Shown here: piece by piece, positions 26,619 to 58,701 of the stretch
Layout of the letters: every line of letters begins with the position of its first letter
How positions within the stretch are numbered: the stretch's first letter is position 1
Source: Niallia alba
GTDB taxonomy: Bacteria; Bacillota; Bacilli; Bacillales; Cytobacillaceae
Direction of reading: 5' to 3'
DNA length: 64,000 nucleotides
NCBI RefSeq assembly: GCF_012933555.1
Contig: NZ_JABBPK010000001.1
Location: 4,318,001-4,382,000, forward strand
Notes under the pieces: model-generated
The model's database searches: none
Told to the model about the DNA's origin: nothing
What the model saw: only the letters and a program-made list of their open reading frames with translations
Program-made: the position numbers and the translations under genes

Positions 26619-26747
26619 TTACTCCGTGGTTACCTTAATAATACTTAACGGACCTGGTTGTGCCTCAGCCTCAGCAAATGCTTTATCTAAATTAGTCCCA
26701 AAAGTTAAGATTACAAGAGCTAGAATAGCGAATACTACTTTTTTCAA
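26619..26747 (-). CDS. Exported signalling-peptide precursor (PapR/NprX/Phr-like), 42 residues
   Basis: A tiny gene directly downstream of an XRE-TPR regulator on the same strand. The start is TTG 26747, nine bases after GGAG. The product begins MKKVVFAILALVILTFG, a classic signal sequence, followed by TNLDKAFA, where cleavage could occur, then EAEAQPGPLSIIKVTTE. Charge and layout are those of Phr, PapR and NprX precursors, whose C-terminal 5-8 residues are trimmed, re-imported and bound by the cognate TPR regulator. The active piece is not evident; PGPLSII or the very C terminus are candidates. The next gene starts seven bases after its stop. Confidence 0.75.
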   Translation of the reverse strand: MKKVVFAILALVILTFGTNLDKAFAEAEAQPGPLSIIKVTTE

Positions 26748-26837
26748 TGTAAACAACTCCAATTCATAATATTTTATTACTATTAATTTAACGCAAAGGA
26801 ATTGTTTAGTGAAAGAAGTAAAATTCTATTAAATTTT

Positions 26838-26905: not shown

Positions 26906-28171
26906 TTAATTTTCGTAATCAAGTGCTTTCATTAATAGATCTGCTGCCTTTTTATAGGCTTTTTTTTCATAAAAATGACTTCCAAGTTCTTTCGTAATTC
27001 TTCGAATTAGTGCACCTTGATTTAATTGCATAGCTGTATCAAGAAGTTTCTGCATTCCCTTTTCATAAGAACTTTCATTTCCTTGCAATTTTTTCACCGA
27101 AAACTTTATGATATTAAGTAGAATATAATCATACTTTAACCCATGTTTTTCTGTAATAAAAATTGCCTTTTCTAAATATTTATCTACTAAAACCCAATCC
27201 TTTAGCTCTATATAAATTTCTACTAATCTTTTTAATGGATAAACATTTTGTTGCTCTGACGAATGACTTTCAAATAATTCTATACTTTTTAAATAATATG
27301 TGACAGCCCCCTGATAATCCCTCTTTCTTTCAAAGATTCTTCCCATATTATGTTGAATCATTGCAATATAGTTCACAAACTTCTCACTCTCTTTATCCTC
27401 CACTATAATAGCTTCTGCCTTCTTCAAACAATCCATCGAAGTATCTAATTCGTTATTTAATTGATATTGAACACCAAGTGTAATTAATACAGTAATAATG
27501 TATTTTTTCTCCCCATAATTTTTAAAAATATCATAAGCCTTTTGGGAATAATAAAGACTTACTTCCTGGTTATCATACGTTCTTTGCTTAACCAAGCTGA
27601 GATTATAGTATAGTTTCGCAGCATCTAAATTATCTCGATCAATTAGTAAACTTTCGCCTTTTGAATAATAGTGATTTGCACGTTCAAAATCTTGGAAGTA
27701 ATAAAAATAGTTACCACACGCCAAAAAATAATAAAAATATTCTTCCTCTAAACCCTCACTTATTTCTCCAGAAATAAATCTTTTAGATAAATTAAAAATG
27801 CTTCTAGCCTGCTCTATTTCTCCTTTTGTCGTATAGTATCTCAACAAAACTCCATAAAGATGTAGATTAATTTTTGTAGAATTTAATTCATATGTCTGAA
27901 CAAGCAGATAGGAAAGATCTTCCTCCGATATTTTTTCACTTTGTTTATAGTTTTCCACAATTTCTAATGTCTTTTCATCTCTATTCGGAACACTTAATTC
28001 CGTTAAATCATAGCCAAGTCTTTTCGATACTTTCCTTAAAAATTCTGCTGATGGATTGATTTGCCCATTTTCAATCCTACTTAAATAAGTGATAGAACAT
28101 ATTCCTTCCGTTAATTCCTTTTGCGTCAGCTGTTTATGTATGCGCAGTTGTCTTATTCTTTCACCTACCAT
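26906..28171 (-). CDS. XRE-TPR peptide-responsive regulator (NprR/PlcR type) 1
   Basis: A 421-residue protein: XRE helix-turn-helix at about 5-58 (RIRQLRIHKQLTQKEL, SITYLSRIENGQINPSAEFL) and then TPR-like helical repeats to the end (HNMGRIFERKRDYQGAVTYYLKSIELFE is the clearest). This is the RRNPP architecture; the length is that of NprR rather than the shorter PlcR. Start ATG 28171 has GGGAG eight bases upstream; the longer in-frame extension upstream is non-coding in character. A peptide gene follows 158 bases downstream. Expected role: gene control in response to the re-imported peptide. Confidence 0.88.
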   Translation of the reverse strand: MVGERIRQLRIHKQLTQKELTEGICSITYLSRIENGQINPSAEFLRKVSKRLGYDLTELSVPNRDEKTLEIVENYKQSEKISEEDLSYLLVQTYELNSTKINLHLYGVLLRYYTTKGEIEQARSIFNLSKRFISGEISEGLEEEYFYYFLACGNYFYYFQDFERANHYYSKGESLLIDRDNLDAAKLYYNLSLVKQRTYDNQEVSLYYSQKAYDIFKNYGEKKYIITVLITLGVQYQLNNELDTSMDCLKKAEAIIVEDKESEKFVNYIAMIQHNMGRIFERKRDYQGAVTYYLKSIELFESHSSEQQNVYPLKRLVEIYIELKDWVLVDKYLEKAIFITEKHGLKYDYILLNIIKFSVKKLQGNESSYEKGMQKLLDTAMQLNQGALIRRITKELGSHFYEKKAYKKAADLLMKALDYEN

Positions 28172-28226
28172 TTTATCTCCCTTCTCTCCTGTTATTTCCA
28201 TTTCTCTATGTATTGATATTACAATT

Positions 28227-28232
28227 ATTATA
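28227..28232 (-). promoter_or_regulatory. -10 element of XRE-TPR regulator 1
   Basis: TATAAT on the minus strand, 56 bases before the start codon; no clear -35 at 17 bases. Confidence 0.4.
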
Positions 28233-28337
28233 GCGCTAATGTACCATTTTTTTGAAAATATATGATAAAAATTCACAAAGATTGTTTCAAAAGGTTTATA
28301 AACTTCACATAATTTGGATAAGGAAAGAAAAAGCCCA

Positions 28338-28371
28338 TAAAAAAACTTGACCATCAAAAATAGGTCAAGTT
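28338..28371 (-). terminator. Terminator of MFS transporter gene
   Basis: AACTTGACC (28344-28352) and GGTCAAGTT (28363-28371) form a perfect nine-base stem; seven or more Ts follow on the minus strand. Confidence 0.85.
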
Positions 28372-54639: not shown

Positions 54640-55314
54640 ATGGAGACAAAAAGTATAGTTACTCGTCTGTTTATTGTTTCAGAATGGATTACAAGAATTG
54701 CTTTTTTAAATCTTATTTGGCTGCTATTTAATCTTCCTATTTTTTATTTATCCTTTCATTTATTTGTTAGTACTCTGTCACAACAATTGCTCGCTATTGT
54801 CTCACTTATAGCTGTCTTATCACCATTACTCCTTTTTCCATCTACCACTGCCCTCTTTGGTGTAGCACGAAAATGGGTGCAAGGGGAACTAGGAGTAAAA
54901 TTGCTTCCTTCTTTTTGGAAATTATATAAAGAGAATTATTTACGTAGTTTATTAGGCGGCATTGCTTTCACTATTGTTTGGCTATTTCTGATATTGGACT
55001 TTTACTACTTCTCCACTATAAAGTCACCTATTTATTATCTATTTTTAGTTGTAGCCCTATTTATGGTAGTTATTACGATTAACTTTTTCTCACTCTCTGT
55101 ACATTACGAGGGAACACTTTTTCAGACAATGAAAAATGCCTTCTTACTAACATTGGGACGTCCCGTTCATACACTCGGTATTGCATTTATTAGTATCGCC
55201 TGTTTTTATATAAGCTTTAACCTTTTACCTTTTTTACTATTCTTAGGATTTGGATCCCTTTGTGCCTACGGATCTTTCTTCATCTTTCATCGTGGGGTAA
55301 CTCCAGCTGCGTAG
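54640..55314 (+). CDS. DUF624 (YesL-like) membrane protein 2
   Basis: A 224-residue membrane protein with about five hydrophobic segments; VSEWITRIAFLNLIWLLFNLPIFYL is the DUF624 opening. ATG 54640 follows GGAGG by eight bases. Second DUF624 in the window, here divergent from the GH30 gene and with a LacI-type operator before it, so it belongs to the LacI set. Function of the family is unknown. Confidence 0.88.
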   Translation: METKSIVTRLFIVSEWITRIAFLNLIWLLFNLPIFYLSFHLFVSTLSQQLLAIVSLIAVLSPLLLFPSTTALFGVARKWVQGELGVKLLPSFWKLYKENYLRSLLGGIAFTIVWLFLILDFYYFSTIKSPIYYLFLVVALFMVVITINFFSLSVHYEGTLFQTMKNAFLLTLGRPVHTLGIAFISIACFYISFNLLPFLLFLGFGSLCAYGSFFIFHRGVTPAA

Positions 55315-55329
55315 TTTAGCGGAAAATGA

Positions 55330-55395
55330 AAAAAATCTTCCATATATGCTATTTTTAGCTTCAAGCGAAAGGCAGCATAAGGAAGATTTTTTTCT
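55330..55395. terminator. Bidirectional terminator, DUF624 / peptide gene
   Basis: AAAAATCTTCC (55331-55341) and GGAAGATTTTT (55381-55391) with inner ATGCT/AGCAT pairs; T-runs on both strands. It closes the DUF624 gene from the left and the peptide gene from the right. Confidence 0.8.
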
Positions 55396-55459
55396 CTTCT
55401 CGGAAATTTATATTGATAAGGAATCAGTAGAACCATCCCCCTGAGGACATGCTTTATCC

Positions 55460-55531
55460 TTATACTGGAGGCCAAATTGGATGTGCTAGGGCAACTAAAA
55501 GGATTGCTGAAGCTAATAAGAATTTTTTCAT
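55460..55531 (-). CDS. Exported signalling-peptide precursor with C-terminal heptapeptide HPIWPPV
   Basis: A 23-codon gene fused in translation to the regulator before it: the sequence TAATG makes the regulator stop and this ATG share one base, and GGAGGG in the regulator's last codons lies eight bases upstream. The product is a basic start and hydrophobic core, MKKFLLASAILLVALA, ending in a canonical ALA cleavage site, followed by exactly seven residues, HPIWPPV, and the stop. Heptapeptides at the C terminus are the active form in PapR and NprX systems. No other reading of this piece is as coherent. A terminator follows 65 bases on. Confidence 0.82.
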   Translation of the reverse strand: MKKFLLASAILLVALAHPIWPPV

Positions 55532-56760
55532 TATTTTCTTCCCTCCATTTCTATGTATTTAATAGCTATTTCAAATTTTCCTAATCGTTTATAGTATTTA
55601 GATAGTTGATTAGAAAAATAATGAAGCTCTTCTCTATGTTCTCCAATACTTTCTAAATAAGGAATGATTTTATTCTCTAAATACTTGAATCCGACTTCTT
55701 CATCGCCATTTATCATATGTAGATAATAAATAGATAAATACTGATACTTCAAATTGTTTAGCTCTTTTGATAAAGCATATACCTTTTCAAAAAAAGCCTT
55801 TGCTTCACTAGAATTAAGATCATGATAACATTGTGCCACTGTATACAGACTAATAATATAGTGAACAGTCCCGGGAGTTTGCATATTTAAACCTAGTTTG
55901 TAATAATAAAGCGATTCTTCATGAAGACCCATCTTATGCTTTAAATATCCTAGATTATTATAAATTCGTGGCAGTAATGATGTCTCTTTCAAGAGCTTTA
56001 CATTTCGAATGATATGTTTATAGCAATCTAATGCCTCTTGATAAATGCCAGCATGTGTATAATTAATCGCAAGTAGCATAAGTGTATGAATAATTCGTTT
56101 AAAATTATACTGATTGGTAAACAATTGCAAAGCTTTCTTTCCATAGAAAATGGCTTGTCCCGATTTCTCTAGAGATCCCTTCACTAATGCTATATGATAG
56201 TATAACTCTCCTGATGCAAGAGGGTTTGTTACATCATCATGCAAAAGCTGCAATAATTGATCTCTTGCATCATTGAATTCTCCTCTTAATATTAAGTGTA
56301 TTCCATGATAATAAGAAAATAAATAGGATTCATGTTGGGAAAAATTTTTTCTTTGCTTATATAGCCATTTACGGTGATTGTCGGCTTTTTCTAGATTTTT
56401 AATAAATAAAAAATATCGATATTTATAAAGCTCGTATAGATAGATATAAGGGGTAAAAGTGATTAGTTCGTTTCGTTTCTCTAGTTCTACAAAGGCAAAT
56501 CCAGCTTCCTCCTCTTCAAAGTATTCCATATGTTCAATAAATCTAGTAATGAGTGATTTAATTTGCTTCATATCGTTTTCTACTACTTGAAGATCAATAT
56601 GCAAACGCTCAAATAATAGTTTGACTGTTTCTTGATTTGCTTCTTTATGATTATTTTCAATTTTACTTAAGTGTGGAATCGAACATATACCCTCTGCAAG
56701 CTCACTTTGTGTCAAATTTGCTTTCGTTCGATAGTATTTCAGTAATGAGCCAGTTTTCAT
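55531..56760 (-). CDS. XRE-TPR peptide-responsive regulator (NprR type) 2
   Basis: A 409-residue regulator: XRE helix-turn-helix at about 4-57 (LLKYYRTKANLTQSELAEG, SIPHLSKIENNHKEANQETV) and TPR-like repeats to the end (IYNNLGYLKHKMGLHEESLYYYKLGL is the clearest). ATG 56760 is seven bases after AGGTGG; an ATG six bases earlier is too close. It overlaps the peptide gene by one base and is divergent from a neutral protease gene 303 bases away. By analogy to NprR it should bind the re-imported peptide and switch on the protease; the analogy is family knowledge, the link here is inferred from position. Confidence 0.9.
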   Translation of the reverse strand: MKTGSLLKYYRTKANLTQSELAEGICSIPHLSKIENNHKEANQETVKLLFERLHIDLQVVENDMKQIKSLITRFIEHMEYFEEEEAGFAFVELEKRNELITFTPYIYLYELYKYRYFLFIKNLEKADNHRKWLYKQRKNFSQHESYLFSYYHGIHLILRGEFNDARDQLLQLLHDDVTNPLASGELYYHIALVKGSLEKSGQAIFYGKKALQLFTNQYNFKRIIHTLMLLAINYTHAGIYQEALDCYKHIIRNVKLLKETSLLPRIYNNLGYLKHKMGLHEESLYYYKLGLNMQTPGTVHYIISLYTVAQCYHDLNSSEAKAFFEKVYALSKELNNLKYQYLSIYYLHMINGDEEVGFKYLENKIIPYLESIGEHREELHYFSNQLSKYYKRLGKFEIAIKYIEMEGRK

Positions 56761-57063
56761 GGACATACCACCTATTTTCTTATAGTTAATCACTTATGAT
56801 ATATAATTAGTATATTAATAGAATTAATATTGAACTGTAAATGCTATCCAATCGCATTTTTCCCAAATTTAAAAGGTTGTAAAGGATAGATTTCTCATTC
56901 TAAAGTCCCTATTTCCCACCTATAAACTTATTAAAATGGCAATTTTAGTCCATTTGCTCCTTAATATTTTCCCAATTATCCCTACTATTTTTCTATGATA
57001 TTATCACACTAAGAATTTTTTTAATATTCTTTTTTCATTCCAAAATTAAAGGAGCGATAACAA
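56761..57063. promoter_or_regulatory. Divergent promoter region, regulator 2 / neutral protease
   Basis: AT-rich 303-base gap. The perfect inverted repeat ATATTAAT-AGA-ATTAATAT (56812-56830) lies 52 bases before the regulator start and is a candidate operator. On the protease side, AAAGGAG at 57048-57054 is the ribosome site. No small gene or terminator seen. Confidence 0.5.
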
Positions 57064-58701
57064 ATGAAGAAAAGTTTATCTCTATTACTAGCAACTGGTC
57101 TAGTATTCGGAGCTGCTATTCCAAGTGGATTAGCAGCAAGCAATGAACAAAAAAAGTTAGAAAAGTTCCAATTGTCTCAGAAAAATTGGGATAATAAAAA
57201 AGATTTACCCACCTTCCTATCTGGAAAACTATCTACTAAAAAATATAAAGTAGAAAAAGAGATTAGAGCTTATTTAAAAGAAAATGAGACACTCTACAAA
57301 ATTAACCCAAGTAAAGATCTTACGCTATTAGAAGAAACAACAGACGAGCTTGGAATGAAACATTATCAATATGTTCAATCAGTAAATGGTGTTCCTATTG
57401 AAGGCGCGGCATTTTATGTTCACACAAATAAAGCTGGTGAAGTCGTAGCTGTCAATGGTGGATTACATCCCGAAGCATCAAAGAAAGTTACAACAACAAA
57501 AGCGAAACTAGCAGACAAGGATGCAATCGAGAAAGCATGGAAGCACTTAGATTTATCTAAAGAAGAGACAAGCAATGGCGATACAGTTGAATTAAAAGGA
57601 TTAAGTAGCAAAGCAGCAAGTGAATCAACTACTGTTGAGAAAGACTCATTAGTTGTGTTTGAGAAAAATGGAATTTACCATCTAGCATATAAAGTAGAAT
57701 TTCAATTTATCGACCCATATCCAGCAAACTGGCAAATTTTCGTTGATGCCAACGATGGAACAATTATAGATTCCTTAAACGCAGTAACTGATGCAGCAAC
57801 CACAGGTCGTGGAACTGGAGTAAACGGAGACACTAAAACATTAAATACATATTTTTCAAACGGGACGTATTATTTGTATGATACAACAAAGCCAATGAGT
57901 GGCGGCGTTATTCAAACAGCTACTGCACAAAATCGTTCGACGCTTCCTGGGGTGTATTCAACAGATGCTGATAACGCTTGGACTGCAAGTAATCAACGTG
58001 CAGATGTAGACGCTCATTATTATGCTGGAGTAGTGTATGACTATTATTACAATACTCATAACCGAAATAGCTACGATAATAGAGGAGCATCTATTACATC
58101 AACCGTTCATTATCAAACAAACTATAATAATGCCTTCTGGAATGGTTCACAAATGGTTTACGGGGATGGAGATGGAACTACTTTTGCACCACTTTCTGGC
58201 GCACTTGATGTAGTGGCGCATGAAATTACCCATGCAGTAACAGAAAGAACAGCTGGCCTGCAATACCAAAATCAATCTGGTGCACTAAATGAATCTATGT
58301 CTGATGTGTTTGGCTATTTCCTTGATCCTAATGATTGGTTATTAGGAGAAGATGTCTATACACCAAAAGTTTCTGGCGATGGTCTGCGTAGTTTATCTAA
58401 TCCTGAAAGCTATGGACAACCTTCTACAATGAGCAATTATGTCAATACAACAAGTGATAACGGCGGGGTTCATATTAACAGCGGTATTCCTAACAAAGCA
58501 GCTTATTATACAATTAGTTCTATCGGAAAAGCACAAGCGGAAAAAATTTATTATCGTGCATTAACAACCTACTTAACACCTACAAGTAATTTTAGTAACG
58601 CAAAATCTGCTTTATTACAAGCTGCTTCAGATCTTTATGGCAGCAACAGCAGCACTTATAATGCGGTAAAAAGTGCTTGGGATCGTGTAGGTGTAAACTA
58701 A
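57064..58701 (+). CDS. npr: Bacillolysin, neutral metalloprotease (M4, thermolysin family)
   Basis: A 545-residue secreted preproprotease. Signal peptide to about residue 25 (ending SGLAA), FTP and PepSY propeptide domains (about 30-235), then the mature enzyme. HEITH at 386-390 and the third zinc ligand E410 in [12 protein letters not shown] have exactly the thermolysin spacing (24 residues from first His to Glu); the catalytic-site His is in [18 protein letters not shown]. It degrades extracellular protein and supplies peptides in stationary phase. Divergent from the NprR-like regulator, so peptide-controlled expression is expected. Confidence 0.96.

Follow-up and report, generated by a model that had tools for sequence, protein, structure and literature searches.

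A predicted xPIxPPx pheromone and its NprR-like receptor next to a neutral protease gene of Niallia alba: a candidate quorum-sensing switch for extracellular proteases

We analysed a stretch of 64,000 nucleotides from Niallia alba (assembly GCF_012933555.1, contig NZ_JABBPK010000001.1, positions 4,318,001 to 4,382,000 of the forward strand; hereafter the window, with positions counted from its first letter), in which a small open reading frame (ORF) directly follows the gene of a regulator with a helix-turn-helix (HTH) domain and tetratricopeptide repeats (TPR), divergent from npr, a gene for a secreted neutral protease. The sequence comparisons point to a quorum-sensing switch for extracellular proteases, organised as a self-contained module with a pheromone of the type xPIxPPx, and we put the probability of this reading at roughly 0.82. 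An initial annotation of this DNA had taken the ORF for the gene of a small pheromone, with a C-terminal 7-mer, belonging to an NprR-like receptor of the RRNPP family, and conservation in relatives together with the tandem repetition of the 7-mer gives this proposal strong support.

The pro-pheromone ORF has 23 codons (55460–55531, minus strand) and the regulator gene encodes 409 amino acids (55531–56760, minus strand), starting from the ATG at 56760, with an alternative longer GTG frame from 56793. Base 55531 is common to the TAA of the regulator (55533–55531) and the ATG of the pro-pheromone ORF, giving TAATG, and a GGAGGG lies within the final codons of the regulator, ahead of the small ORF. 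The full translation, MKKFLLASAILLVALAHPIWPPV, consists of Lys-Lys, a hydrophobic core, A-L-A, seven residues and a stop, that is, the leader MKKFLLASAILLVALA followed by HPIWPPV as the predicted mature signal at the C terminus; here as in the relatives, the secretion signal was assessed by eye. The one-base overlap, the ribosome site in the last regulator codons and the ALA followed by seven residues and a stop were thus all seen as first described, whereas the word "fused" does not apply, as the two genes merely overlap by one base.

Relatives of the receptor were collected in two sets, which overlap in many genomes. Set one comprised the homologues found in 98 further genomes of the 193 in the family (33–51% identity, E below 1e-60), together with 11 weaker paralogues; one homologue (L079) runs off its contig, leaving 97. 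Set two came from genome contigs, where a single protein as query gave no relative and an alignment as query gave 196, the best 80 of which were kept; one of these runs off its contig, leaving 79. In set one, a small ORF beside the receptor encodes xPIxPP followed by V, I, L, A or M at 94 of the 97 loci: P[ILV]xPP[VIL] stands near the receptor stop in 84, and PIxPP followed by A or M in 10 more, one of which begins 169 nt downstream of the receptor stop. The remaining three are L038 (NPIQPPV, not in frame with the leader), L104 (PPILPPY after an interrupted receptor) and L137 (contig ending at HPIQPPV); L038 and L104, in which the motif is out of frame or the peptide is kept beside a broken receptor frame, are possibly silenced systems or assembly errors. 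In set two, P[ILV]xPP occurs in an ORF by the receptor stop at 77 of 79 loci, the exceptions being L159, which reads AIRPPV, and L177, which is cut by the contig end. With other bounds, a control count gave 76/79 for the real sequences vs 0–1/79 in ten order-1 Markov randomisations and 0/79 on the opposite strand. Conservation and the randomised controls together rule out a chance ORF. Among the 11 weaker paralogues the strict motif was found in none, L106 showing DPIQPPT.

The initial annotation had suggested searching relatives for an overlapping small gene, and had held that loci lacking the frame or carrying frameshifts in it would speak against a pheromone. The small gene was recovered in both sets, and only L038 has the motif off the leader frame, with L104 and L137 also atypical among the 97. 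The overlap itself, on the other hand, is not conserved, since the small ORFs start between −17 and +21 nt from the receptor stop, and once at +169.

Whereas the rest of the propeptide varies, the xPIxPPx signal is conserved, in set one sometimes followed by short C-terminal tails (G, KEA, KEDS, LL and similar). Some propeptides carry two to five tandem copies of a 7-mer: HPIHPPL in 2–3 copies (L080, L083, L086 and L087), HPIYPPL in 3 copies (L094), TPIYPPL in 3–5 copies (L096, L098 and L099) and IPIHPPIG in 3 copies (two Psychrobacillus). These tandem copies argue that the seven-residue unit is the signal; the first HPIHPPL copy stands directly after ASA in several propeptides, just as HPIWPPV stands after ALA in the window. 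The fourth residue of the motif is the variable one (Q 24, L 21, Y 14, H 12, W 4, D 1, R 1 and F 1 over 78 rows, namely 77 loci and the window), and this residue and its neighbours probably define pherotypes. Two further genomes encode exactly HPIWPPV, namely G133 (at L050, on the contig that also appears as L204, Neobacillus niacini MER531) and G143 (at L056). The suggestion of a new signal class therefore needs rewording: the signal is indeed unlike those of NprX and PapR, but HPIWPPV alone is one variant of xPIxPPx. That the small ORF encodes a membrane micropeptide or a translational-coupling element and no signal at all strikes us as very improbable; its short hydrophobic N terminus and its overlap with the receptor stop would suit such a role, but what is conserved is the hydrophilic 7-mer at the C terminus, present in up to five copies in some relatives, and the variable start positions argue against coupling.

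The second line of evidence concerns the neighbouring proteases. The divergent npr (57064–58701, plus strand; Pfam PF01447/PF02868), encoding a secreted thermolysin-like M4 neutral protease, is the predicted target in the window. Within the genus, npr and the receptor occur in this genome only, the 12 other genomes lacking both (~25% paralogues of the receptor were found in four of them, and no close homologue in any). In the family, npr is present in 25 of 193 genomes, the other 24 copies being 61–65% identical, and the receptor occurs in 24 of the 25 npr genomes vs 75 of the 168 others (p 3e-7, kinship not corrected). An S8 subtilase gene (PF00082) lies in the flanks of 55 of the 79 loci. 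At 54 of these it precedes the receptor by no more than about 0.5 kb (L184 has it further off), and at 45 it shares the strand of the receptor. The window and B. infantis (L186, on the contig that also gave L064/G014) instead have an M4 protease gene as the neighbour of the receptor.

These protease genes share an upstream box, TTTTCCCAA, which was first spotted by eye upstream of S8 genes and then counted. As TTTCCCAA, it occurs upstream of 55 of 57 protease genes (54 of 56 S8 genes and npr of the window), compared with a mean of 0.85 and a maximum of 5 in shuffles; an unguided 8-mer count ranked TTTCCCAA first, and the background was 76 of 1171 random 423-bp stretches. The box is also found upstream of the receptor gene itself at all 24 loci without S8 (20 forward, 4 reversed) and at 11 of the 55 loci with S8. 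The window has two operator-like boxes on the plus strand, TTTTCCCAAT at 56967–56976, 96 nt before the npr start and followed by TATGATA at 56994–57000, and TTTTCCCAAA at 56858–56867, which precedes the npr start by 205 nt and the regulator start by about 98 nt. The sequence TTTTCCCAA followed by TATGATA within 15–22 nt occurs once in the window, where none is expected. Of the 24 npr promoters in genomes that also have the receptor, 12 were examined, and each has two boxes: in nine, whose genes lie on a different contig from the receptor or millions of bases away from it, the boxes stand at −82 to −85 and −172 to −183, and the others are npr of the window (−96 and −205) and two from g2 genomes, in which the boxes are reversed and npr adjoins the receptor. 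We read the box, from its conservation, as the putative operator of this receptor branch, possibly common to other NprR-like receptors.

It could instead belong to another protease regulator such as CodY, with the receptor acting elsewhere, although we find this doubtful. In several S8 promoters, an element TCWGAAAATT was seen by eye ~40 nt downstream of the box, with which the box has AATTTTC in common, and this element resembles half of the CodY site. An inverted TCWGAAAATT near the S8 −10 region, at first considered a second half-site for the receptor, may rather be a CodY site too. According to the available part of PMC4147580, moreover, nprR is under CodY control in the B. cereus group, and G142, a genome without a receptor of the present clade, has the box at npr. 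A CodY-type site would not readily account for the CCCAA kept in 55/57 cases, in a single orientation and upstream of protease genes, nor for the boxes upstream of the receptor wherever S8 is absent. In the receptor-less genome G023, the S8 homologue has no box, and neither has the 44% identical M4 gene of the genome G115.

If the receptor recognises the box, the switch for extracellular proteases would work as follows. The 23-residue pro-peptide would be translated right after the receptor, exported by the Sec pathway and cleaved after ALA, releasing HPIWPPV. The peptide would accumulate with cell density and, as in the RRNPP family, be re-imported by an oligopeptide permease to bind in the receptor's TPR groove, and the HTH domain of the receptor would recognise the conserved TTTTCCCAA boxes; the peptide-bound receptor would then activate npr and probably also its own gene. 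Among the relatives, this signal class and the box are found together with an S8 subtilase next to the receptor or with an M4 protease encoded at another place in the genome. The prolines of the signal (x-Pro start and Pro-Pro) may shield it from the very proteases it induces. Activation is proposed as the direction because NprR activates and the box lies upstream of a −10-like element. A receptor repressing npr until relieved by the peptide seems less plausible, because NprR, the nearest relative, is an activator and the proximal box is placed ahead of the −10-like TATGATA without covering it.

Several observations weigh against a protease switch of this kind. The box is missing at two loci with both signal and S8, L203 and L225, and in turn it was found in 3 of 21 paralogue or outgroup upstream regions. 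Genome G142 lacks the clade receptor and yet its npr has one forward and one reversed TTTCCCAA box (L331, L328). In the Niallia genome itself, 88 box sites were counted vs 61 for the backward pattern, a weak enrichment that is not specific alone; leaving aside the npr region, 67 of the other 86 sites lie inside ORFs. The propeptides of L073, L090 and L092 have no obvious signal sequence. Finally, divergence-weighted covariation with the fourth signal residue gave p ~0.007 for receptor column 113 among 203 columns and 0.04 for the position of NprR H201, neither being significant after correction; of the covariation with the TPR groove that the initial annotation had proposed to look for, there is thus only a weak trace, column 113 differing in 6 of 12 close pairs with unlike fourth residues and in 0 of 21 with the same one. 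A regulon search of this genome from the box alone (genes being ORFs of at least 80 amino acids) gave nothing convincing besides npr. At the G142 loci, npr, another NprR-like receptor (26% identical to that of the window) and a different small peptide ORF stand in a row, which suggests that the promoter stays while pheromone and receptor may be exchanged.

As to the receptor, Pfam assigned HTH_3 to residues 8–59 of the working sequence P0002 (which has one extra leading Ser, so that residue numbers are native plus one), in addition to TPR repeats, whereas no NCBIfam model matched at its cut-off. Among solved structures NprR came first (phmmer 7.6e-22; 5.4e-44 with a 21-row profile made from the window and 20 of the 98 relatives). 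Rap proteins, mixed with designed TPR proteins, came next with values of 1e-17 or weaker. The AlphaFold2 model, built from the window and 40 of the 80 named loci, reached a mean predicted local distance difference test score (pLDDT) of 92.1 and a predicted TM-score (pTM) of 0.83, and a Foldseek search with it again placed NprR (5dbk/4gpk) first and Rap next. By its Rap/NprR TPR fold and the adjacent small propeptide gene, the receptor fits the RRNPP(A) family.

A plain orthologue of the NprR–NprX system of the B. cereus group, with a drifted peptide and the Rap-like Spo0F function included, is nevertheless unlikely. NprR is the closest solved relative, a neutral protease adjoins and the peptide gene lies directly downstream, but identity to NprR is only ~23–24%, the signal is unrelated to SKPDIVG and the Spo0F and NprX contacts are mostly replaced. 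In an alignment of 41 rows including the window, with residue roles from the available part of PMC4970707, the Spo0F-contact residue D107 is replaced in 41/41 (by Phe in 40), Y118 is Lys in 41/41, E188 is Glu in 4/41 and Y223 is Tyr in 6/41, the window being among the six. Of the NprX contacts, R126 is Arg in 4/41, H201 is His in 3/41, N306 is Asn in 9/41 and D309 is never Asp; at W167, which stacks on the Lys of NprX, Trp was found in none of the residues listed (Tyr 24, Phe 10). The position of F225, involved in the tetramer, has Phe in 38/41. The residue N270, aligned to NprR N275, is invariant in the 41 rows and is probably the backbone-binding Asn described for the family in the accessible part of PMC3601957. 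The term "NprR-type" is accordingly apt for nearest relative and architecture, but not for most of the tested NprR contact residues.

A quick maximum-likelihood tree of 102 rows placed the window and the 79 named loci in one group (SH-aLRT support 97), with L105/L106 as sister (support 96). The window sits on a long branch, and its grouping with L174 may be spurious; by identity, the nearest row is L146 (51%). The contig scan also found members in Lysinibacillus, Psychrobacillus, Paenisporosarcina and Chryseomicrobium. The receptors of L187 and L155, titled Chryseobacterium sp. ISL-80 and Paenibacillus sp. BSR1-1, are nested among those of Mesobacillus and Neobacillus, and these records are probably mislabelled. 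An origin from a phage or plasmid was rejected, as there was no phage match and the eight plasmid records held distant homologues only (24–56% identity, some to the HTH only). Three of the four outgroup plasmid receptors have other peptides, ending in EEFPEPTVAQVLI, in QDYPNP or in EEFPPPLAP/EELPPPLAP repeats; the fourth, L314, has no evident peptide and is adjoined by an S8 peptidase. The EEFPPPLAP/EELPPPLAP-repeat propeptide follows a receptor on a Mesobacillus foraminis plasmid (L315, 3763–4176), beside a non-ribosomal peptide synthetase, and is another candidate for a proline-rich repeated signal. G147, G146, G130 and other genomes have five to seven receptor homologues each (E below 1e-15), counts that suggest several parallel peptide languages per cell.

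The window holds a second HTH and TPR receptor (26906–28357, minus strand) with a downstream secreted small ORF (26619–26762, minus strand) ending in AEAEAQPGPLSIIKVTTE. Its relatives in four other genomes of the genus (L003–L006) have QPG[AP][LF]SI at the same place, and its peptide would represent a second pheromone class, unrelated to xPIxPPx. On the 3' side of the pro-pheromone ORF, a hairpin with a U-run (55318–55400, minus strand; −29.8 kcal/mol, z −6.2) is a probable terminator, possibly serving the convergent DUF624 gene as well, although a consensus terminator scan of 55250–57150 listed none. No RNA element within the window reached the gathering threshold.

Whether these systems form a separate RRNPP subfamily for extracellular proteolysis (Neobacillus, Mesobacillus, Robertmurraya, Lysinibacillus, Psychrobacillus and others), with protease-resistant xPIxPPx pheromones, position-4 pherotypes, a receptor without Spo0F function and a TTTTCCCAA operator that outlasts the signal as in G142, seems to us an evenly balanced question. 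In their available parts, the RRNPP surveys PMC9765709 and PMC10075063 report NprR-class receptors in 21 genera, repeats in 17/17 large propeptides and 21 novel clusters; the present receptors may be among them, but no PIxPP signal, box or protease linkage was found in those parts, and supplementary tables may list receptors or peptides. Nor was the xPIxPPx class found in the searched literature, including the available parts of PMC12700828 and PMC11343458, although supplementary tables may hold it. Searches on the motif strings gave only matches unrelated by title and abstract, a prior listing in supplementary tables being possible; those on the box strings gave none recognisably on the subject among the matches listed, and phrases for an NprR binding site gave no match. 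According to the accessible text of a 2014 review (PMC4147580), the DNA sequence recognised by NprR–NprX was still to be determined, and the box offers a concrete candidate site for this branch, perhaps for NprR-like receptors more widely. If the reading as a protease switch is true, 99 of 193 family genomes and the members in Lysinibacillus, Psychrobacillus, Paenisporosarcina and Chryseomicrobium would carry a peptide language timing protease secretion, and the fixed signal core with one freely varying position would be a natural set for studying how signal–receptor specificity evolves.

Compared with known systems, the module most resembles NprR–NprX, with which it shares an HTH and TPR receptor, a small secreted peptide gene directly downstream, an adjoining neutral protease gene and the best fold and sequence match. 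It differs in that xPIxPPx, at or near the C terminus, takes the place of the NprX signal SKPDIVG (PMC4970707, available part) that an NprR system would be expected to have inside its propeptide, in that the residues tested as Spo0F and NprX contacts are mostly replaced, and in that the target in the present relatives is usually an S8 subtilase. Rap–Phr systems share the TPR fold, as the second-best matches, and a short peptide from a downstream gene, but Rap proteins have only an N-terminal three-helix bundle and no HTH, whereas the present receptor has an HTH domain and an association with a DNA box. PlcR–PapR, with a C-terminal heptapeptide and a TPR transcription regulator of secreted enzymes, is alike in outline. 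However, no PlcR chain was among the profile matches listed, the present receptor matching the nine-TPR or Rap folds of NprR and Rap whereas a five-TPR fold would be expected for PlcR, and the PapR heptapeptide ADLPFEF (PMC6568020, available part) is unlike xPIxPPx.
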